A stretch of DNA of 40,913 nucleotides. Origin: Candidatus Woesearchaeota archaeon (GTDB lineage: Archaea; Nanobdellota; Nanobdellia; Woesearchaeales; ARS49). Location of the stretch: NCBI GenBank assembly GCA_003599055.1, contig QZIM01000003.1, positions 1 through 40,913 on the forward strand, in the 5' to 3' direction. Position 1 is the stretch's first letter, and every line of letters starts with the position of its first letter. This document shows positions 2,000 through 22,862 of this stretch, piece by piece. The translations under genes and the position numbers were made by a program. A model generated the notes under the pieces. That model worked only from the letters and a program-made list of their open reading frames with translations, had not been told where the DNA came from and ran no database searches.

Positions 2000-2959
2000 A
2001 TGCGGGGGATTTGGCTCATCGTGATAGTGTTGTGCGCAGGGCTAGCTTCCGCTGCACAAATTGACACGGCAATTACGACGATTGCGCTGCAGGGGGGTTT
2101 TGCGCAGGTGCGGTCGCAATATGTGATTATAAGCCAGGGTGTCGAGGACTTGAAGGTCTCTTTGCCTGCGGATGTGCGTGAAGTGTATGCGGATATGGAT
2201 GACCAGCAACGCACGTGCAAAATTGAGAACGGGACTGCCTTTTGCGGGAGTACAAAGGGGCAAAAGCACGTGTTCACGATTGCGTATGAGAGTGAGGGCA
2301 TTGTGGGGAGTTTGGGCGAGCGGGAAGTGGTGAAGTTTTCTGAAGTGTTGCCGTTTCGGGCAAGTGAGCATACGCTGATTCTCAAGTTGGTGCGCGGAAG
2401 CGTGATTGCGCGTGAAATTGACAAGGACGAGTTTTTTTTCGTGACGCCAAAGCCAACGGAAGTGCTTTCGGACGGACAAAGGATTATCGTGACGTGGAAA
2501 TCACGTGATGTTGAGCAAGTTTCAATGAGCGCAGTAACTGAACCGGTGGCGGAAGAGGGAAGCGCTGCATATATCGCGCTTACCATTGCCGCAGTGTTTG
2601 GGGGCGCGGCAACATACGTTGTGCTAAGGCGCAGGTGGCGTGCGCCAAAGGAGGTAAAGCGTTCGGTTAAGCGAAAGGCAAAAGAGCCGGCAAAGGAAGT
2701 TCCGAAAGTTTCGGTCGCCGAACCGACGGTGCAGGTAAAAGCAATTGCGCCGCAGTTTGTCGAGGATGAGCAGCGCGTGGTTGAGCTGCTCAGGTCCGCG
2801 CAAAATCAGGAGCTCTGGCAAAAGCAACTCGTGCAGGAAACGGCATTTTCAAAGGCAAAGTTGAGCCGCATTGTGCGGAATTTGGAAGAGCGGGGAGTCA
2901 TAACAAAGCAGATTTTCGGGAACACGAATAAGATTGGGTTAAAGAAGGAGGGGAGGTAG
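2000..2959 (+). CDS. Membrane-anchored winged-helix protein with extracytoplasmic sensor domain
   Basis: About 319 residues. A signal peptide (MRGIWLIVIVLCAGLASA) leads into a beta-rich ectodomain of about 170 residues, then a transmembrane helix (AYIALTIAAVFGGAATYVVL), a Lys/Arg-rich juxtamembrane segment, and a C-terminal winged-helix domain of about 65 residues (VVELLRSAQ, FSKAKLSRIVRNLEERGVI, ending TNKIGLKK). This is the layout of archaeal one-component transmembrane regulators that sense outside and bind DNA inside; the signal is unknown. The ATG at 2000 is chosen over the TTG at 1991 because of the TATA spacing. Its 3' end (AAGGAGGGGAGG before the TAG) could serve as a ribosome binding site for the next reading frame. 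Confidence 0.75.
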   Translation: MRGIWLIVIVLCAGLASAAQIDTAITTIALQGGFAQVRSQYVIISQGVEDLKVSLPADVREVYADMDDQQRTCKIENGTAFCGSTKGQKHVFTIAYESEGIVGSLGEREVVKFSEVLPFRASEHTLILKLVRGSVIAREIDKDEFFFVTPKPTEVLSDGQRIIVTWKSRDVEQVSMSAVTEPVAEEGSAAYIALTIAAVFGGAATYVVLRRRWRAPKEVKRSVKRKAKEPAKEVPKVSVAEPTVQVKAIAPQFVEDEQRVVELLRSAQNQELWQKQLVQETAFSKAKLSRIVRNLEERGVITKQIFGNTNKIGLKKEGR

Positions 2960-2960
2960 G

Positions 2961-2990
2961 TTGTTTCACGTTGTTTCATCTTGTTTCACG
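2961..2990 (+). repeat. Triple decamer repeat upstream of a TATA box
   Basis: Three consecutive 10-mers read TTGTTTCACG, TTGTTTCATC, TTGTTTCACG, sharing TTGTTTCA. They stop 6 bp before the TATA box at 2996-3003, a position that suits an activator or repressor site. Confidence 0.75.
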
Positions 2991-3563
2991 GATTTTTTAT
3001 ATACTGCAGGGGGCTCAAGGAAATCACAAGCCACCATCCACGAGTATGCGAAGGGGGCCAAAAGCCCCCTCGCTACTCACTTTTCTTGGCTCAGGTCAAA
3101 ATCAAGGAGGAAAGTTCTGTTTTTCGTTCTTGTTGCGCTCGTGCTCGGCGCTCTGGCCTTTTGGTTCAGCCCGTTTTGGAATGCGGAAGTAATTGTGGAG
3201 GAGGCGTGGGTGCAGGTAATGCCGCAAGGAGAACGGGCAGGATTTGCATCGTTATTATTTATTGAGCGGTTAAGCGAAGCAGAAGGGGCACCGGAAGAGG
3301 ATTTTCGTGACCGTATCCTGGCCGCACAGCGGTTGCTGAGCATTGTTGAGGAAAATCTTGATATTGAGGGCAGGCCGTATAAGGTGCTTCGGCAGTTGCA
3401 GGAAGTTGACGACGCGCTTCGCCAGGGTAAGCGCAGGCTTGAGCAGTTTTCGCCGCGTTCGGATGAGGAGGAACTCCTAATTAGGCACGCCAGGCTTCGT
3501 GTTGATATTTTGATTGAGGAAGTGGAGTTAGCAAAGCAAAAGAATAAGGCGCAGCTGGCTTAG
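2961..3563 (+). CDS. Single-pass membrane protein with helical C-terminal domain; start uncertain
   Basis: The certain part is a membrane helix (KVLFFVLVALVLGALAFWF, from about 3111) preceded by a basic stretch (RSKSRRK), followed by about 130 charged helical residues likely to form a coiled coil. I do not recognise the family. The start is unclear. A TTG at 2961 lies one base after the previous stop with AAGGAGGGGAGG just upstream, giving 200 residues. Yet a TATA box at 2996-3003 predicts a transcript from about 3028, and an AAGGAGG at 3104-3110 is correctly spaced only from a CTG at 3117, with no in-frame ATG, GTG or TTG there. The stop overlaps that of the convergent gene ending at 3560 by three bases. 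Confidence 0.6.
   Translation: MFHVVSSCFTDFLYTAGGSRKSQATIHEYAKGAKSPLATHFSWLRSKSRRKVLFFVLVALVLGALAFWFSPFWNAEVIVEEAWVQVMPQGERAGFASLLFIERLSEAEGAPEEDFRDRILAAQRLLSIVEENLDIEGRPYKVLRQLQEVDDALRQGKRRLEQFSPRSDEEELLIRHARLRVDILIEEVELAKQKNKAQLA
2996..3003 (+). promoter_or_regulatory. TATA box with predicted structured leader
   Basis: TTTATATA predicts a transcription start near 3026-3030, which would leave a leader of about 90 nt containing the 15-bp hairpin at 3042-3078 and the AAGGAGG at 3104-3110. Confidence 0.6.
3042..3078 (+). promoter_or_regulatory. Strong leader hairpin (15 bp, two 1-nt bulges)
   Basis: Left arm GAGTA(T)GCG(A)AGGGGGC at 3042-3058 pairs with GCCCCCTCGCTACTC at 3064-3078 around a CAAAA loop. 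It sits between the predicted transcription start and an AAGGAGG sequence, so it could be a regulatory leader structure. No U-run follows, so it is not a standard intrinsic terminator. Confidence 0.6.
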
Positions 3564-11622: not shown

Positions 11623-13815
11623 TCATAATTTTTTGTATTTGAGCAATAGCGAGTTTGTGATGACGCTCACTGAGCTAAGCGCCATCGCGCCGCCTGCAAT
11701 GATTGGCGATAAGAGCCAGCCGGTAAACGGATAGAGCACGCCTGCGGCAAGGGGGATTCCAAGGGTGTTGTAAAAGAGTGCCCAGAACATATTTTGGCGG
11801 ATTTTTCGCATAGTTTGCCTGCTGAGCGTGATGGCGTGCGGGATTCCCGTCAGGTCATTACGCATAAGCACAACGTCTCCTGCCTCTAATGCGACGTCTG
11901 TTCCGCTGCCCATCGCGATTCCTACGTCTGCTTGCGCAAGTGCGGGGGCATCGTTTATTCCGTCGCCAATCATCGCAACCTTTCCTTTTTCTTGCAGTCG
12001 CTTGACGTGTTCCGCTTTTTCGTGCGGCAATACCTCTGCGAAAATGTTGGAAATTCCGATTTGAGCGCCAATCGCTCGCGCAGTACGTTGATTATCGCCC
12101 GTAATCATATGTACGGTAATCCCCATTCTGTGAAGGCGCTCGACAGTCTCTTTTGCGCTTTCCTTAACTGTGTCTGCAACGGCAATGAGTCCGAGGATGG
12201 TTCCTTTTTTGGCGAAGGTCATGACGGTCTTTCCCTGTTCTTCAAGTTCGTGGATGTGCGCCTCGTACTTTTTCAAATCGATTTTCTGGCTTGCCATAAG
12301 TTTCTTGTTCCCGAATAAGTATGTTGTTCCTCTCACCGCAGCCGTAACTCCTTGGCCCGGAATGATTTTGAACTTGCTTGTCTTCTCAAATTGGATATTC
12401 TTGGTTCTTGCGTGAGTTACTATTGCTTCGGCAAGAGAATGTTCGCTGTCTTTTTCAACGCTCGCGGCAAGCTTCAAAAGCTGTGTTTCAGTGAGCTTGC
12501 CAAAGGGTATGATGTCGGTTACTTCCGGTTTTCCTTTGGTGAGCGTCCCTGTCTTGTCAAAAACGATGTGATTGATTTTGTGTGTTGTTTCCAAGATGTC
12601 ACCGCCTTTGATGAGAATGCCGTTTTTCGCGCCTCTGCCGGTTCCGACCATGATGGCAGTGGGCGTGGCAAGTCCCAACGAGCAGGGACAGGCAATGACA
12701 AGAACCGCCACTGCGGTGATGAGCGCAAATGAGAATGCTTGCGCGCTGAGGAAATACCACGCGGTAAACGTGCCAAGGGAGGTGAGAATGACGATTGGGA
12801 CAAAGTATGCTGAAACCGTATCAGCGAAGCGTTGAATCGGCGCTTTTCTGCCTTGAGCGTCTTCTATCAAGCGGATGATGTTGGCAAGAGTGGTGTCTTT
12901 GCCGACTTTGGTTGCCTTAAAACGCAAACTGCCGTGCTTGTTGATGGTTCCTCCGATGACCGTGCTGCCTTTGGTTTTTTCAACAGGTATGCTCTCACCG
13001 GTAATCATGCTCTCATCAATAGCCGACGCTCCGGAAATGACCGTGCCGTCAACCGGCACTTTTTGTCCGGGCTTCACGAGCACGACATCATCGGCTTGAA
13101 CTTCTTCGACCGGCATCTCCGTTTCCTTGCCATCGCGGAGAACAATGGCGGTTTTTGCGGAGAGCCGCATAAGTTTCTGGATTGCTTCACTTGTTTTTCC
13201 TTTTGCACTTGCTTCCAAAAGCTTGCCTAATATGACGAGCGTGATGAGAACCGCGGAGACCTCAAAATATTGTCCTTCAAGCCCGGCAAAAACCGCGTAA
13301 ACGCTGTAAAAGTATGCGGCGCTCGTGCCGATTGCAATGAGCGAGTCCATATTGGCTGATGTGTTTTTGAGGGCAGTCCATGTGCCTTTGTAGAAGTCCC
13401 ATCCGATGAAGAACTGAACAGGCGTTGCGAGAATAAGGAGGAAGTATTCTGCAAGCGGCAGGTGTATGCCAAAGTAAAACAGGCCGTCTTCCATAAGGAA
13501 CATGCCGATAATCAGTGCAGGGAGTGAGAAGATTGCGCTTCCGATGAAGAGGACTTTGAGCCGGAAGAGTTCGTATTCGCGTTCTTTGTCTGCTTTTTTG
13601 CCGTCCCCCGTGTACGCGCCGTATCCTTTTGCTTTCACTGCTTCGATAAGTTTTTGCTCGTCTGCCTGCGCGTCATCGTACTCCACGGTTGCTTTTGCGG
13701 TTGAGAAGTTCACGTTCGCGTTTGCTACACCGGGTACTTTTGAGAGTGTTTTGGTAATGACGGTTGCGCAGCTTGCGCAATGCATCCCGGTTATTGAGAG
13801 TGTTGCGTTCTTCAT
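11623..13815 (-). CDS. copA: Copper-exporting P1B-type ATPase
   Basis: 730 residues. One N-terminal HMA domain with GMHCASC (Cys13, Cys16) is followed by eight predicted membrane helices, the CPC metal site (ACPCSLGLATP, about 376-378), the phosphorylated Asp in DKTGTLTKG (about 418), TGDN, GDGINDAPAL and the C-terminal SSVSVITNSLLL typical of Cu(I) pumps. It exports monovalent copper from the cytoplasm using ATP. A minus-strand TATA box at 13848-13857 and a near-palindrome at 13826-13843 precede the ATG. The five-gene ArsR-CopZ operon lies immediately upstream on the same strand with only a 58-base gap, so copA may be read both from its own promoter and by read-through. Confidence 0.95.
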   Translation of the reverse strand: MKNATLSITGMHCASCATVITKTLSKVPGVANANVNFSTAKATVEYDDAQADEQKLIEAVKAKGYGAYTGDGKKADKEREYELFRLKVLFIGSAIFSLPALIIGMFLMEDGLFYFGIHLPLAEYFLLILATPVQFFIGWDFYKGTWTALKNTSANMDSLIAIGTSAAYFYSVYAVFAGLEGQYFEVSAVLITLVILGKLLEASAKGKTSEAIQKLMRLSAKTAIVLRDGKETEMPVEEVQADDVVLVKPGQKVPVDGTVISGASAIDESMITGESIPVEKTKGSTVIGGTINKHGSLRFKATKVGKDTTLANIIRLIEDAQGRKAPIQRFADTVSAYFVPIVILTSLGTFTAWYFLSAQAFSFALITAVAVLVIACPCSLGLATPTAIMVGTGRGAKNGILIKGGDILETTHKINHIVFDKTGTLTKGKPEVTDIIPFGKLTETQLLKLAASVEKDSEHSLAEAIVTHARTKNIQFEKTSKFKIIPGQGVTAAVRGTTYLFGNKKLMASQKIDLKKYEAHIHELEEQGKTVMTFAKKGTILGLIAVADTVKESAKETVERLHRMGITVHMITGDNQRTARAIGAQIGISNIFAEVLPHEKAEHVKRLQEKGKVAMIGDGINDAPALAQADVGIAMGSGTDVALEAGDVVLMRNDLTGIPHAITLSRQTMRKIRQNMFWALFYNTLGIPLAAGVLYPFTGWLLSPIIAGGAMALSSVSVITNSLLLKYKKL

Positions 13816-13825
13816 TATGTTTCAC

Positions 13826-13857
13826 TAATGACATATGCTATTAATGCAATATATAAG
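13826..13857 (-). promoter_or_regulatory. copA promoter and candidate ArsR operator
   Basis: Minus-strand CTTATATATT (13848-13857) is the TATA box. The sequence TAATGACATATGCTATTA (13826-13843) is an imperfect palindrome (14 of 18 symmetric) between TATA and ATG. Its minus-strand ATATGTCATTA matches ATATGTCATCA in the arsR promoter at 16205-16224, so the same regulator may bind both; this is inference. Confidence 0.55.
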
Positions 13858-13873: not shown

Positions 13874-14320
13874 TTATTCCCGTCTGAGCAAATACAAGCT
13901 TCCCGACAAGATTGCAAGCGTGATAAATTGAATCTCAAAACCGCGCAGCGGAAGTGATGCCCAGCTGAAAGACACCCCGAACGTGCTGAATATGAACGGG
14001 AAGACACTCGTGACGCACGCAGGGCACACCCCTGCGGCAAAACCGCCAATTCCTCCTGCACAGGCGAGTGCTCCTTCCTTGGCGACCCTGCGCTCTTGCC
14101 AGCGGATAAAGCCGTAGACTGCATTGAGCGCAATAAGGCCGGCAATGGTTAAGCTCAGGAGTATCGATACTCCAAACTCCGCCCAGTTAAGCGTGTTCAG
14201 ATAGCGGGGAATGTACTGTATTGTCACGTAAAACTCGCTGAGGTAGACCAGCAGGATGAGGTATGCAAAGAAAATGGCTGCAAGCCAATATGCGTACGGC
14301 GTTTTGAAAACACGGTTCAT
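13874..14320 (-). CDS. Four-helix membrane protein with CPAC motif, copper operon
   Basis: 148 residues with about four membrane helices (near 11-28, 48-70, 88-114 and 130-144). The third segment holds AGGIGGFAAGVCPACVTSVF, giving CPAC at 99-102 plus Cys87, a possible intramembrane metal or thiol-redox site. I do not recognise the family beyond similarity in style to CPxC membrane proteins found near metal genes. The ATG overlaps the stop of the cupredoxin gene in an ATGA junction, making it the last gene of the ArsR-CopZ operon. A role in copper transfer or disulfide chemistry is inferred from the neighbours. Confidence 0.75.
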   Translation of the reverse strand: MNRVFKTPYAYWLAAIFFAYLILLVYLSEFYVTIQYIPRYLNTLNWAEFGVSILLSLTIAGLIALNAVYGFIRWQERRVAKEGALACAGGIGGFAAGVCPACVTSVFPFIFSTFGVSFSWASLPLRGFEIQFITLAILSGSLYLLRRE

Positions 14321-14760
14321 ACGACTTGCAGTTTCCCCGAGCCCATGCCCATCGCGCAGCTAAAGGTGAACGTGCCTGCTTTTTGCGGCGTGAATTCTAC
14401 GATGTTGTCAGAGTCAGTGAACTGTTTTGAGACGCCGAGTTCGGGAATTTGGAATGAGCGGAAACATCCGCTGAGGCGCTGGATGTCCGCGGTTATTCGG
14501 ACCGGCATTCCTTTCTTTACGGTGATGGCTTCAGGCGCATAGTTAAACTTGCCCCAGCCAAGCGTCACTTCCTGCACGCCATTGACAATTTTTGCTTCAA
14601 TTGCTGTCGCCGAGGAAGCAGTGTCCAAAGCGAGTACGCCTGTTGCTTTTGGGACAGGCACGGGTTTCAAAAGAGTAACCGCTCCGAAAAGAAGGAGGGC
14701 AACAAGCGCGATTCCGCCGATGATGTTTATTGTCTTGTTTGATGTTGTGTCTTTTGTCAT
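14317..14760 (-). CDS. Membrane-anchored cupredoxin-like protein
   Basis: 147 residues. A membrane helix at about 11-32 anchors a cupredoxin-type beta sandwich outside the cell: FNYAPEAITVKKGMPVRITAD, SGCFRSFQIPELG and GTFTFSCAMGMGSGKLQVV. Likely copper ligands are Cys99, Cys135, Met137 and Met139, a Cys/Met-rich set without the usual His, which would favour Cu(I). It resembles the cupredoxin-like domains found beside or fused to copper ATPases. The start at 14760 is preferred because AAGGAGGA lies just upstream; an ATG at 14775 in the same frame overlaps the previous stop (ATGA) and is a possible alternative. Confidence 0.85.
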   Translation of the reverse strand: MTKDTTSNKTINIIGGIALVALLLFGAVTLLKPVPVPKATGVLALDTASSATAIEAKIVNGVQEVTLGWGKFNYAPEAITVKKGMPVRITADIQRLSGCFRSFQIPELGVSKQFTDSDNIVEFTPQKAGTFTFSCAMGMGSGKLQVV

Positions 14761-14771
14761 TTTTTCCTCCT

Positions 14772-15695
14772 TCATCCGACTGCAGCAATCCCCGTTCGTG
14801 GCCCGTAGATGATTAATGCATTTAGAGCGATGCTGGCTAAAAGGCAGGCAAAAAAGAACGTTGAAAAGTCTACCGGATGCTTTCTGGTTGTGGTGTTGTG
14901 TTCTACTACTTCTTCAAAAAGCATATACGAAAGCCCCCACATGATAAATACATTAATAATGGTGAAGGCCGGCATAAACCAAAGGATGTTGTCTACGCGG
15001 AACATGGCTCCAATCATGCTTCCCATAACTCCTCCCATCACTCCCGCCATCATGCCCTCCATTATGCCCATAATGCCGCAGCATCTGCCGTTGTAAAAGC
15101 CAACGCCGACCGCAAGAACCATTCCTGCAATTCCCCCGACAAAAAGACCGTTTGTTGCCGCAATGATAGTTCCGAGCATCATGCCGGTCTGCATGCCAAA
15201 AGTCATTCCTATCATCATTCCCACCATACTCGTCACGTTTGTCTTGTATGATTTGATGTGCCAGATGGCTGCACCAATACTCACCACGCTGACATCAATA
15301 TAAAGAATCCACCACGCATACTTCGCCAAAAAGTCAGGGACTGATTTCAAAAAGGTGAAGTACGCAAACAGGTTGAGCGCAAAAAGTGCAAGGAGAGTAA
15401 GAACGGTATTTCTCAGCATCAGCCGCTCAACGGCGTATTTTTGAGGGTTTTTTCTGAAATCCCTGAATCGCTCTGTAAGAGTCATCTTGTGAAGTTCATC
15501 AAGGGAGGCGCGATAGCCCTTTTGCTGAATCGCGCTCACAATCTCGGAGGGTTTGACCTGCCCGTCACTGGTTACTTCAACCGCGTTGTGCTTGAATTCG
15601 AAATGCTCAATGCCCGGCAGTTTTTCCAGAACTTTTGTTAGGACTTTGATGCAGCTTTCGCATTCGATATCCGGACAATAGACCTTGGTTTTCAT
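14772..15695 (-). CDS. HMA domain fused to Met-rich multi-pass membrane protein
   Basis: 307 residues. An N-terminal heavy-metal-associated fold (about 1-70) carries CPDIECESC (Cys7, Cys12, Cys15). About six or seven membrane helices follow. Those at about 155-240 are packed with Gly and Met (MVGMMIGMTFGMQTGMMLG; GIMGIMEGMMAGVMGG) and include a Cys-Cys pair (GRCCGIMG). Met-lined membrane paths are typical of Cu(I) handling, so a copper channel, importer or loading factor is plausible, but I do not know a characterised homologue. It overlaps copZ upstream by ATGA and the cupredoxin gene downstream closely, so these proteins probably pass copper in sequence. Confidence 0.8.
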   Translation of the reverse strand: MKTKVYCPDIECESCIKVLTKVLEKLPGIEHFEFKHNAVEVTSDGQVKPSEIVSAIQQKGYRASLDELHKMTLTERFRDFRKNPQKYAVERLMLRNTVLTLLALFALNLFAYFTFLKSVPDFLAKYAWWILYIDVSVVSIGAAIWHIKSYKTNVTSMVGMMIGMTFGMQTGMMLGTIIAATNGLFVGGIAGMVLAVGVGFYNGRCCGIMGIMEGMMAGVMGGVMGSMIGAMFRVDNILWFMPAFTIINVFIMWGLSYMLFEEVVEHNTTTRKHPVDFSTFFFACLLASIALNALIIYGPRTGIAAVG

Positions 15696-15889
15696 ACGCG
15701 GTACCCTAACTCCTTAATTGCGGCAACTGCCTTTGCCGGATTCCCTTCAAAAGAAACAATCGCTTCCTGTTTTTTCCCATCAAGCGCTATTGAGACGTTT
15801 GTTGTTCCAATCTCGGTCAGCGCGTCAGTCACAAGCATCACGCAGCTTTTGCAGTGCATTCCCTTTACTCTCAAAACGTTTTTTGGCAT
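15692..15889 (-). CDS. copZ: Copper chaperone, single HMA domain
   Basis: 65 residues forming one HMA (CopZ/Atx1-like) domain with GMHCKSC (Cys13, Cys16) and the beta-alpha-beta pattern ending AIKELGYRV. It carries Cu(I) in the cytoplasm to CopA or the neighbouring HMA-membrane protein. The ATG at 15889 is preferred because minus-strand GGGGGTGA lies five bases upstream; a GTG at 15898 overlapping the arsR stop (GTGA) is the alternative. Its stop overlaps the next start (ATGA). Confidence 0.92.
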   Translation of the reverse strand: MPKNVLRVKGMHCKSCVMLVTDALTEIGTTNVSIALDGKKQEAIVSFEGNPAKAVAAIKELGYRV

Positions 15890-15894
15890 TACGT

Positions 15895-16197
15895 TCACCC
15901 CCGCATCCTCTTACAATACTTGCCTGTGTGTTTGTGTAAAAGGCCCATAAGAGGCGCAATCGTTTCTTTATTCAACTCGTACACCCGCTCCCGGCCTTGC
16001 GGCTTGACGAAAACAAAGCCGCATTTCTCGAGGCGCTGCAAATTATGAGAAATTGTCGACTGGTTGCACTCGAGGGCGGAACAAATCTGTGTGACGTTTT
16101 TCGGACCGTCCTTGAGTGTTTCAATGATGTCTATCCTGAACTGATTTGCGAGTGTTCCAAAGAACTTATCATATGGCGCGCGAAGGGCAGTTTTCAT
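15895..16197 (-). CDS. ArsR-family metal-responsive repressor
   Basis: 100 residues with the ArsR winged helix: FRIDIIETLKDGPKNVTQIC, recognition helix CNQSTISHNLQRLEKCGFV, wing KPQGRERVYELN. Cysteines at 39, 44, 59 and 95 and His at 51, 88 and 90 offer metal ligands, so copper or another soft metal is the likely inducer. It is the first gene of the copper operon, starts leaderless from a TATA box 25-34 nt upstream and has a palindromic site between TATA and ATG, consistent with autoregulation. ArsR-type control of copper genes is less usual than CsoR or CopY control. Confidence 0.85.
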   Translation of the reverse strand: MKTALRAPYDKFFGTLANQFRIDIIETLKDGPKNVTQICSALECNQSTISHNLQRLEKCGFVFVKPQGRERVYELNKETIAPLMGLLHKHTGKYCKRMRG

Positions 16198-16204
16198 ATG
16201 GGAA

Positions 16205-16231
16205 ATATGTCATCAATATCATATTTATAAG
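16205..16231 (-). promoter_or_regulatory. arsR-copZ operon promoter and operator
   Basis: Minus-strand TATA CTTATAAATA (16222-16231) overlaps the end of the plus-strand sequence ATATGTCATCAATATCATAT (16205-16224), whose outer arms ATATG/CATAT are symmetric. The site fills the space from TATA to start codon, ideal for repression by the ArsR protein. Confidence 0.65.
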
Positions 16232-16632: not shown

Positions 16633-17016
16633 TTATTTAATTACTATTGCCTCAGGGAGTCCTGCAAAGTCGTTGTCGCACGTGATGATTTTGGCGCCGT
16701 TGATTTTGGCAGCGGCAAGTATGTGCGCATCAACAATGCCGAATTTCGGTTTTGTCTTTCTTCGTGATTGGTACAGATTGCCTGTTTGTCGTGCAACTTC
16801 AAAGTCGATAGATACGAGTTTGGTCATTGACTGCAGTGCGTATATGAGTTCATTGACCGGCTTGTTTTCTCGCGCAAATTTTGCAGAGAGTTCTGAAGCA
16901 ATCATTCCTGTTGTGAGCAGAGTCGCATTTTGGATGAGGTCGCGGATTCTTTTTCCTTTGGATGTCTCGTTGAAGTATTCGATCCACGCAGAAGTGTCAA
17001 TGACATATTTATTCAT
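16633..17016 (-). CDS. vapC: VapC-type PIN toxin
   Basis: 127 residues with a complete PIN active site: Asp7 (YVIDTSAW), Glu42 (ASELSAKF), Asp96 (GIVDAHILAAA) and Asp114 (ITCDNDF). PIN toxins are magnesium-dependent ribonucleases that cut tRNA or rRNA when freed from their antitoxin. The ATG at 17016 overlaps the end of the AbrB-type antitoxin gene by eight bases, the usual antitoxin-first order. The gene ends just before a 130-base gap that holds the possible small gene. Confidence 0.9.
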   Translation of the reverse strand: MNKYVIDTSAWIEYFNETSKGKRIRDLIQNATLLTTGMIASELSAKFARENKPVNELIYALQSMTKLVSIDFEVARQTGNLYQSRRKTKPKFGIVDAHILAAAKINGAKIITCDNDFAGLPEAIVIK

Positions 17017-17215
17017 ATTTTGAGTGTGCCCGGTCAGTCTCTTTGTTATACGGCAAGAGGCCTTTGAACGCGCCGAACCAGTCCTTGCGGACCTTCTTGA
17101 TTTCAAGCTGAATCGTGTCTCCTTCGTGGATTCCTTCGTGGTCTGCGAGGTCCTTTGGTATGCGGACCATAAGCGAACCGCCGATTTTTTTTGTTTTTTG
17201 GATGGTATTTGTCAT
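17009..17215 (-). CDS. vapB: AbrB/SpoVT-type antitoxin
   Basis: 68 residues. The N-terminal swapped-hairpin AbrB domain is clear (TKKIGGSLMVRIPKDLADHEGIHEGDTIQLEI); the C-terminal tail (WFGAFKGLLPYNKETDRAHSKYE) should wrap around the VapC toxin. The ATG at 17215 is chosen over that at 17224 from its distance to the TATA box. An inverted repeat TAACATA-N9-TATGTTA directly upstream is the likely autoregulatory operator. Confidence 0.88.
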   Translation of the reverse strand: MTNTIQKTKKIGGSLMVRIPKDLADHEGIHEGDTIQLEIKKVRKDWFGAFKGLLPYNKETDRAHSKYE

Positions 17216-17218
17216 ATT

Positions 17219-17250
17219 TAACATAATATTATACTATGTTATATTTAAAG
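17219..17250 (-). promoter_or_regulatory. vapBC promoter and operator
   Basis: TATA-like minus-strand CTTTAAATAT at 17241-17250; inverted repeat TAACATA (17219-17225) and TATGTTA (17235-17241) between it and the start. The placement fits repression by the VapBC complex. Confidence 0.65.
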
Positions 17251-21428: not shown

Positions 21429-22862
21429 ATGCGCTGGTTTATCGTGGCAGTATTGCTTGCAGGATGCGTTTTACCGGTTTCTGAACTTCAGAAGGCAGGG
21501 GAAATGCAGGGCGTTATTCTCGATGATGGCGCGCGCTTTTCGTTGGTTGCTGCCCCTGTCAAAAACGAGCTCGCGGGCGTTTCGCTTGAGATGTTTGCGT
21601 ATAACGGGCAGGTTCCCGGCCCAATTTTGCGCGTGAGGCAAAACAGCACCATAACCGTGAATTTCACAAACAATTTGCCGATGGAGTCGACCGTGCACTG
21701 GCACGGGCTTCGTTTGGAAAATAAGTATGATGGTGTTCCTGATGTGACGCAAGGAGCAGTGCAGCCGGGCAAATCGTTTGAGTACAAGTTGACGTTCCCT
21801 GACTATGGTCTGTATTGGTATCACCCGCACACGCGCGAGGATTTGCAGCAGGAGAAGGGTTTGGCTGGCGTGATTTTGGTTGAGCCAATTGAAAAAGCGT
21901 TTGTTCCTGCAAAAGAGGAAGTGCTCGTGCTTGATGATGTCCTGATAACCGAAGGCGGGCTTGAATTTGGCGAACGGGTGGACCACGCACTGATGGGGCG
22001 TTTTGGAAATGTGATGCTGGTGAACGGAAAGGCGAATTATTCGCTGAATGTAAAGACTGGCGAGCGCGTGCGTTTTTTTATAGTTGATGTGGCAAACACG
22101 CGGTTGTTTAATTTCTCAATTGAGGGCGCGCGGCTCAAGGTGGTGGGCGCGGACAGTGAATTGTATCAGGATGAGTTTTTCGCGCCTGCGGTTGTTTTGG
22201 CGCCGGGTGAGCGCGTGATTGTGGAGGCAGTGTTTGAGCGGCCGGGCGTGTACCGGTTGATGCATAAGCATCCGCACGCGGCGTACGTTCTTGGAGAAGT
22301 AATTGTTTCGGGGGAGGAAGTGAAAGTCACTGACTCTGCAAGGAAAAACAAGTGGGCGTATGATGTGTCGGAGTACGTCAACAGGGCTCCTGATTTTGCG
22401 TTTGAGCTGGATGTTGATATGCAAATGATGGGCGGGATGAATCACGCGATGATGGGGCACGGCGCGGGCAGGGTAGAGCCAATTGAGTGGGAAGATACGA
22501 TGCAGATGATGAACGCGCACAGTACGGATAAGAATACGCGCTGGATTATTCGCGAAGTGGCGTCGGGAAGGGAGAATATGGATATTTCGCTCACTGCGAA
22601 AGTGGGCGATGTGAAAATGTTGAGGTTCACGAATCTGAAAGATTCCGCGCATCCGATGCAGCACCCGATTCACCTGCACGGCCAGCGCTTCTTGGTGCTG
22701 GGCGAGAAGAACTCAGTGTGGAAGGATACGGTGATTGTTCCTGCGGGCGAGTCTGTTGATGTGCTAGTTGAGTTTACGAATCCCGGGAAGTGGATGATGC
22801 ACTGCCATATTGCCGAGCATTTGCACGCGGGGATGATGGCAATGTTTGATGTAAGCGCGTAG
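21429..22862 (+). CDS. Lipoprotein multicopper oxidase, Met-rich (laccase/CueO-like)
   Basis: 477 residues. The signal ends in a lipobox (VAVLLAGC, Cys13), so the enzyme is probably membrane tethered outside the cell. All four copper-binding blocks are present: HWHG at 90-93, WYHPH ending at 134, HPIHLHG at about 412 and HCHIAEHLHAGM at about 458, covering the T1 and T2/T3 sites. A Met/His-rich stretch (MQMMGGMNHAMMGHG, about 331-345) resembles the substrate-shielding Met segment of cuprous oxidases such as CueO. Such enzymes oxidise Cu(I) or phenols and reduce O2 to water, implying at least occasional exposure to oxygen. It may protect against copper together with the CopA island 6 kb away. 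Confidence 0.93.
   Translation: MRWFIVAVLLAGCVLPVSELQKAGEMQGVILDDGARFSLVAAPVKNELAGVSLEMFAYNGQVPGPILRVRQNSTITVNFTNNLPMESTVHWHGLRLENKYDGVPDVTQGAVQPGKSFEYKLTFPDYGLYWYHPHTREDLQQEKGLAGVILVEPIEKAFVPAKEEVLVLDDVLITEGGLEFGERVDHALMGRFGNVMLVNGKANYSLNVKTGERVRFFIVDVANTRLFNFSIEGARLKVVGADSELYQDEFFAPAVVLAPGERVIVEAVFERPGVYRLMHKHPHAAYVLGEVIVSGEEVKVTDSARKNKWAYDVSEYVNRAPDFAFELDVDMQMMGGMNHAMMGHGAGRVEPIEWEDTMQMMNAHSTDKNTRWIIREVASGRENMDISLTAKVGDVKMLRFTNLKDSAHPMQHPIHLHGQRFLVLGEKNSVWKDTVIVPAGESVDVLVEFTNPGKWMMHCHIAEHLHAGMMAMFDVSA

Follow-up and report, generated by a model that had tools for sequence, protein, structure and literature searches.

We propose that a gene cluster of a Candidatus Woesearchaeota archaeon encodes a copper(I) homeostasis module, namely an operon of the cupA-copA type rebuilt around a new membrane protein, and we give this reading a probability of about 0.5. 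Cu(I) would be relayed from the chaperone CopZ and an HMA domain over this membrane protein, termed METM, to an external cupredoxin, and would also be exported by the ATPase CopA. The cluster lies on contig QZIM01000003.1 of a 1.15 Mb genome, within the 40,913-nucleotide stretch of DNA that was analysed as a whole (the window), and its closest relatives by sequence, among the best 80 of 191 matches, are found in Woesearchaeota. An initial annotation had regarded the assembled module as unfamiliar. This is true of METM and of a second membrane protein, CPAC, which are both unnamed, but not of the cupredoxin, which is of the known CupA type; the module is therefore a variant of the cupA-copA operon. 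The same annotation had derived from the gene order a hand-off of copper from chaperone to membrane to external cupredoxin, which fits the anatomy of the encoded proteins, while both the metal and its direction are what we infer from it.

Operon layout and regulation

All genes of the operon are encoded on the minus strand. The first one encodes an ArsR/SmtB-type metalloregulator of 100 amino acids (15895–16197), the winged-helix domain of which matches NF033788 (2.9e-18; 65.5 bits, cut-off 55) and, also above cut-off, HTH_5 (5.5e-12). It is followed by a CopZ-type HMA copper chaperone of 68 amino acids with a GTG start and a CxxC motif (15692–15898; HMA 3.7e-10) and by METM (14772–15695), a protein of 307 amino acids in which an N-terminal HMA domain (residues 8–61; Pfam HMA 1.6e-8) precedes a Met/Gly-rich membrane part with seven transmembrane (TM) helices. 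The next two genes encode a CupA-type cupredoxin of 152 amino acids on an N-terminal TM anchor (14317–14775; Cupredoxin_1 1.7e-8) and CPAC, a small multi-TM protein of 148 amino acids (13874–14320). At all junctions from ArsR to CPAC neighboring genes overlap by 4 nt, with GTGA, ATGA, ATGA and ATGA in gene order. CopA follows after a spacing of 58 nt (11623–13815); it is a P1B-1 copper-exporting ATPase of 730 amino acids with an HMA N-domain and a CPC motif read directly in the sequence (IACPCSLGLATP), and it scores 666.9 bits against TIGR01511 (2.6e-200; cut-off 397). Five genes linked by such overlaps and succeeded by CopA had been annotated initially, and the open reading frames, the overlaps and the protein families are all confirmed by our analysis. 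Directly upstream of the operon a PIN-domain-like protein is encoded beside a small AbrB-like protein (16633–17224, minus strand), probably a toxin-antitoxin pair of the VapBC type.

An archaeal TATA-like element, CTTATAAATA, is located approximately 25–34 nt upstream of the ATG of ArsR (16222–16231, minus strand). Between this element and the ArsR start lies a perfect 7-bp inverted repeat, AAATATG-N10-CATATTT (16203–16226, unstranded), a weak candidate for the ArsR operator. Upstream of CopA, the 58-nt gap contains another TATA-like element, CTTATATATT (13848–13857, minus strand), from which CopA may be transcribed by an internal promoter of its own. The word TRATGACATAT occurs three times in the genome, and two of the occurrences are in the ArsR promoter (TGATGACATAT; 16205–16215, minus strand) and in the promoter gap of CopA (TAATGACATAT; 13826–13836, plus strand). 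This sharing is not significant on local shuffles, since a word of equal length was shared exactly in 18 and with one mismatch in 35 of 300 shuffles (6–12%), and no copper genes are found in the vicinity of the third site. Thus, the word is a weak lead to an operator.

Most of the 18 operon-linked ArsR proteins carry the C-terminal motif [HD]-x-H-x4-C, which reads HKHTGKYC in the window protein and is a candidate metal site. The type of regulator varies across METM loci: ArsR is found in 18 of 81, a membrane-anchored winged-helix protein in 20 of 81, and BlaI together with an M56 peptidase in bacterial loci. The recurrent membrane-anchored regulator (for example 2716–3243 of locus L136) has two TM helices and a MarR/DUF7343 helix-turn-helix domain; its outside loop contains two conserved cysteines (CxxxxxxCLH-like), and the protein is a candidate sensor of external copper.

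Conserved synteny and distribution

A pattern-based scan over one genome per species (84,980 species) yielded 191 relatives of METM, the best 80 of which were fetched and, together with the window locus, form a set of 81 METM loci. Because they were picked by METM similarity, the counts describe the nearest relatives: on the same strand and within 3.5 kb of METM, a cupredoxin is encoded in 72, CopZ in 60 and CopA in 56 of the 81 loci, and all three are present in 44. For CopZ (45 loci) and the cupredoxin (43 loci) the spacing is at most 30 nt or the genes overlap. The co-occurrence in other genomes, on which the initial annotation had staked its module, is therefore strong. Within the proposed five-gene unit it extends to CopZ, METM and cupredoxin, but ArsR (18 of 81) and CPAC (24 of 81) do not belong to the core. 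The conserved unit is CopZ-METM-cupredoxin-(CPAC)-CopA with an exchangeable regulator, and with these genes side by side in dozens of further genomes, the arrangement exceeds chance by far.

Among the best 80 of the 191 relatives, most loci are from DPANN archaea (Woesearchaeota, Pacearchaeota, Micrarchaeota and Aenigmatarchaeota), and a few records are labelled as bacterial, namely a Parcubacteria group genome, Methylococcus sp. and Methylotetracoccus oryzae. The gene order in Micrarchaeota is often cupredoxin-CopZ-METM-CopA. Two bacterial loci, L161 (4466–11044) and L164 (4546–11017), encode BlaI, an M56 peptidase, METM, CopZ, a CcdA-like protein, two cupredoxins and CopA one after another, with DsbA-like genes downstream. 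The METM homologs of methanotrophs (L171, 5719–6846; L189, 5716–6768) lack the HMA domain and are encoded near a Met-rich protein of 458–486 amino acids that bears a signal peptide and the motif CSACH. On sequenced plasmids neither METM nor CPAC was found; two tblastn matches to METM covered the HMA part only.

Of the 279 genomes examined in the phylum, 48 encode the METM membrane part of the operon type, not counting HMA-only matches and fused paralogs. CopA above the curated cut-off is present in 45 of these 48 genomes vs 126 of the 231 others (Fisher 6e-8). Multicopper-oxidase domains do not differ significantly (9 of 48 vs 22 of 231, p = 0.08), and with only 9 of 48 METM genomes encoding such a domain, delivery to multicopper oxidases is not the general purpose of the module. 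The window itself encodes, on the plus strand and at a distance of 5 kb from the operon, a CueO-like multicopper oxidase that contains a Met/His-rich stretch (21429–22862). On contig 17 of the same genome (L218, 1508–3546), three genes in a row encode a membrane-anchored winged-helix regulator, a DUF411 protein and a copper nitrite reductase that exceeds the TIGR02376 cut-off, and a small Met-rich protein is encoded nearby; this row is possibly a second copper gene set of the archaeon. The CueO-like oxidase and the copper nitrite reductase are external copper enzymes that could make use of relayed copper.

METM, the cupredoxin and CPAC

The AlphaFold2 model of METM consists of the HMA domain and seven TM helices (pLDDT 92.4, pTM 0.87), so that the C-terminus is predicted to be outside if the HMA domain is inside. 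The N-terminal, TM2-3 and TM6-7 loops are basic as expected of inside loops; some basic residues are likewise present in the TM1-2 and C-terminal segments. Methionine makes up 20.5% of residues 156–233 vs 2.6% elsewhere in the protein and forms two ladders, M157, M160, M161, M164 and M168 in TM3 and M209, M216, M220, M224, M227 and M231 in TM5, eleven positions that are conserved to 97–100%. TM5 starts on the predicted cytoplasmic side with C205-C206 (93 and 97% conserved), and position 156, a serine in the window protein, is a cysteine in most relatives. Low-complexity noise is ruled out as the source of the Met-richness because in an alignment of 29 sequences Met and Cys keep to particular columns, where they hardly vary. 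An N-terminal CxxC domain is undetectable in 25 of the 81 METM proteins.

The membrane part of METM has no Pfam or NCBIfam model. For the protein, Pfam gives the HMA domain plus weak Gly-zipper matches and NCBIfam one stray CrcB match, and a DsbD_2 match in Pfam is absent from the 29 members tested. A profile of the membrane part run against PDB sequences gave a pyridoxal kinase at 0.0015, which we regard as a compositional chance match, otherwise weaker matches, and no CTR protein. With the whole METM model as query, the Foldseek and VIA-align lists were filled by HMA-bearing entries. METM and cupredoxin are fused into a single protein in loci L118–L122, where the genes stand alone and CopA is not nearby; the one in L118 (5913–6833) is a paralog in the genome of the window, on contig 11. 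The fused paralogs lack the HMA domain, and in the two sequences compared GG stands in place of the CC pair and DEMH in place of TCM, so that they may work differently.

The best PDB matches of the cupredoxin in phmmer are CupA of Streptococcus pneumoniae (2mry/4f2e, 1.1e-12) and the metal-binding domain of S. pneumoniae CopA (4f2f, 2.2e-11). The Cu(I) ligands of pneumococcal CupA are C74, C111, M113 and M115, arranged in the sites C74/C111 and C74/M113/M115 (PMC5646241). They align on C104, C140, M142 and M144 of the window protein (Cys, Cys-x-Met-x-Met), which are kept in 78, 79, 77 and 77 of 80 relatives, respectively. The anchor of the cupredoxin is a hydrophobic segment near the N-terminus, and judged by the distribution of positive charges at this helix, the domain lies on the outer face in 69 of the 80 sequences and on the inner face in 3. 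Lipobox-like signal peptides occur in several relatives, and the predicted outer C-terminus of METM is the end to which a cupredoxin is fused in the paralogs; an external position of the cupredoxin, as assumed initially, is supported by all three observations. Pneumococcal CupA is described as a protein of the cytoplasmic side, which traps copper after its entry into the cell and passes it to CopA (PMC7558416). Its function is therefore not simply transferable, and with the domain predicted outside, the window cupredoxin is related to CupA by fold and ligands and not by cellular role.

In CPAC, Cys99 and Cys102 form a CxxC that is invariant in 33 relatives. Its model is of moderate quality (pLDDT 75.7) with four main helices, and the PDB search with this model gave noise only (E 1.7 and above). 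A relationship to RseC or DsrM was rejected because the matches (E > 0.03) were not repeated in relatives. Relatives of CPAC are encoded in 34 of the 279 genomes of the phylum, and 15 of 17 strong matches lie within 4 kb of METM. Due to its occurrence also outside the METM operon, CPAC is an accessory protein.

A possible Cu(I) relay and its relation to known systems

In the proposed mechanism, Cu(I) in the cytoplasm would be bound by CopZ and by the HMA domain of METM. METM would take it up at its cytoplasmic-side cysteines (C205-C206 and, in most relatives, Cys at position 156) and conduct it along the Met ladders of TM3 (M157, M160/161, M164, M168) and TM5 to the external cupredoxin. There, Cu(I) would be kept at the Cys2Met2 site of the membrane-anchored domain, either to be sequestered or to be passed on to secreted copper proteins. 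CopA would pump Cu(I) out in parallel at the expense of ATP and may also be a source of copper for this cupredoxin. The most likely role of CPAC, in the loci that have it, is to keep the cysteines of the cupredoxin reduced or to add a Cu(I) ligand, and ArsR would repress the operon until it binds metal. METM would then be the first representative of a novel class of Cu(I) transmembrane conduits, defined by seven TM helices with two Met-ladder helices, in which Cu(I) is received from CopZ or the protein's own HMA domain and handed over without ATP to a CupA-type cupredoxin outside the cell, mainly in DPANN archaea and in a few bacteria including methanotrophs; this class assignment is tentative and has somewhat less than even odds. 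Several points speak against the relay. It is energetically unclear how Cu(I) could flow out passively when the cell contains hardly any free copper, CopA alone could suffice for export, and neither the METM proteins without detectable N-terminal CxxC domain nor the fused paralogs without CC pair fit easily.

CTR1 is thought to work by passive conduction along a Met-lined path with cytoplasmic thiols as acceptors. The Met-lined path and cytoplasmic thiols of METM resemble this presumed mode, and the flow might thus be inward: the external cupredoxin would capture and perhaps reduce scarce copper, METM would conduct Cu(I) in a CTR-like manner to the HMA domain and CopZ, and CopA would guard against excess. 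The cupric-reducing activity of CupA in vitro (PMC5646241) is in line with such an uptake. However, the genes adjoin CopA and metal-responsive repressors (ArsR, BlaI/CopY-type), the usual setting of detoxification, and the profile search with the METM membrane part retrieved no CTR protein from the PDB, so that we consider uptake unlikely. A little less credible still is METM as a copper buffer or scaffold that carries no copper across the membrane, with the cupredoxin loaded outside by CopA only. The HMA domain is indeed missing from many METM proteins, and cupredoxins occur with CopZ and CopA but without METM, e.g. in the Nostoc arrangement CopZ-CopA-double cupredoxin-MerR; yet METM-cupredoxin fusions exist in several genomes, and near-perfectly conserved Met ladders spanning two TM helices exceed the needs of a scaffold.

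The invariant CxxC of CPAC, the CcdA-like TM gene between CopZ and cupredoxin beside METM in L161/L164, and the fusion of DsbD_2 to cupredoxin in Acetoanaerobium and Streptomyces would suit a thiol/redox relay, in which the CC pair of METM and the CxxC of CPAC (or CcdA/DsbD_2 elsewhere) pass electrons outward and keep the cupredoxin cysteines or the copper reduced. But the invariant feature of METM is methionine, which undergoes no thiol exchange, and a thioredoxin is absent from the window operon; we judge such a relay improbable. The coexistence of METM with the CcdA-like gene in L161/L164 shows moreover that METM is not simply a replacement of CcdA. HMA, Cys and Met sites bind several soft metals and ArsR-family regulators are diverse, which would also allow the module to handle Ag, Hg, Au or Cd. 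The CPC motif and the score of CopA on the Cu+-ATPase model and the Cu(I) ligands of CupA retained in the cupredoxin make a metal other than copper very improbable.

No description of the module was found in the literature searched, to which subscription papers mostly did not belong and which also seems to contain next to nothing on how DPANN archaea handle copper. If the relay of Cu(I) through METM is correct, reduced genomes retain a module devoted to copper, the membrane protein of which belongs to a family unnamed in Pfam and NCBIfam, and a CupA-type cupredoxin has been shifted to the outer face. The module offers a compact test case for the passage of Cu(I) between cytoplasmic and external carriers.

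Among known systems, copY-cupA-copA of S. pneumoniae shares with the window operon a TM-anchored CupA-type cupredoxin with the same four ligands next to a copper P-type ATPase and a metal-responsive repressor. It differs in the cytoplasmic side described for CupA, as opposed to the predicted outer position of the window cupredoxin, and in the N-domain of CopA, which is a cupredoxin in the pneumococcal and an HMA domain in the window protein. The window operon adds METM, CPAC and CopZ and has ArsR in place of the CopY/BlaI-type repressor, although a BlaI-type repressor does occur in the bacterial METM loci L161/L164. CopZ-CopA efflux operons with ArsR-, MerR- or CsoR-type regulators share chaperone, ATPase and metalloregulator with the window operon but lack METM, the external CupA-type cupredoxin and CPAC. 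CTR/Ctr1 channels have, like METM, Met-rich TM helices with spaced methionines and Gly-rich packing. This is a resemblance only. CTR channels are trimers of 3-TM chains, METM has seven TM helices in one chain and is fused to HMA, and the profile search detected no sequence relation to a CTR protein of the PDB. In Acetoanaerobium noterae (Clostridia), a protein of 490 amino acids unites a cytoplasmic HMA domain, a membrane domain and a CupA-type cupredoxin in one chain and is directly followed by CopA (L221, 3891–7680), which repeats the logic of the window module. Its membrane domain is DsbD_2 (TauE/SafE-like) instead of a Met-ladder 7-TM part (DsbD_2 match 2e-52; 3e-25 in the Streptomyces protein), and ArsR, CPAC and a separate CopZ were not seen in this locus. 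This HMA-DsbD_2-cupredoxin protein with its CopA is the strongest independent support for the logic of the relay, and the fact that DsbD_2 fills the slot of METM in bacteria suggests two independent solutions.
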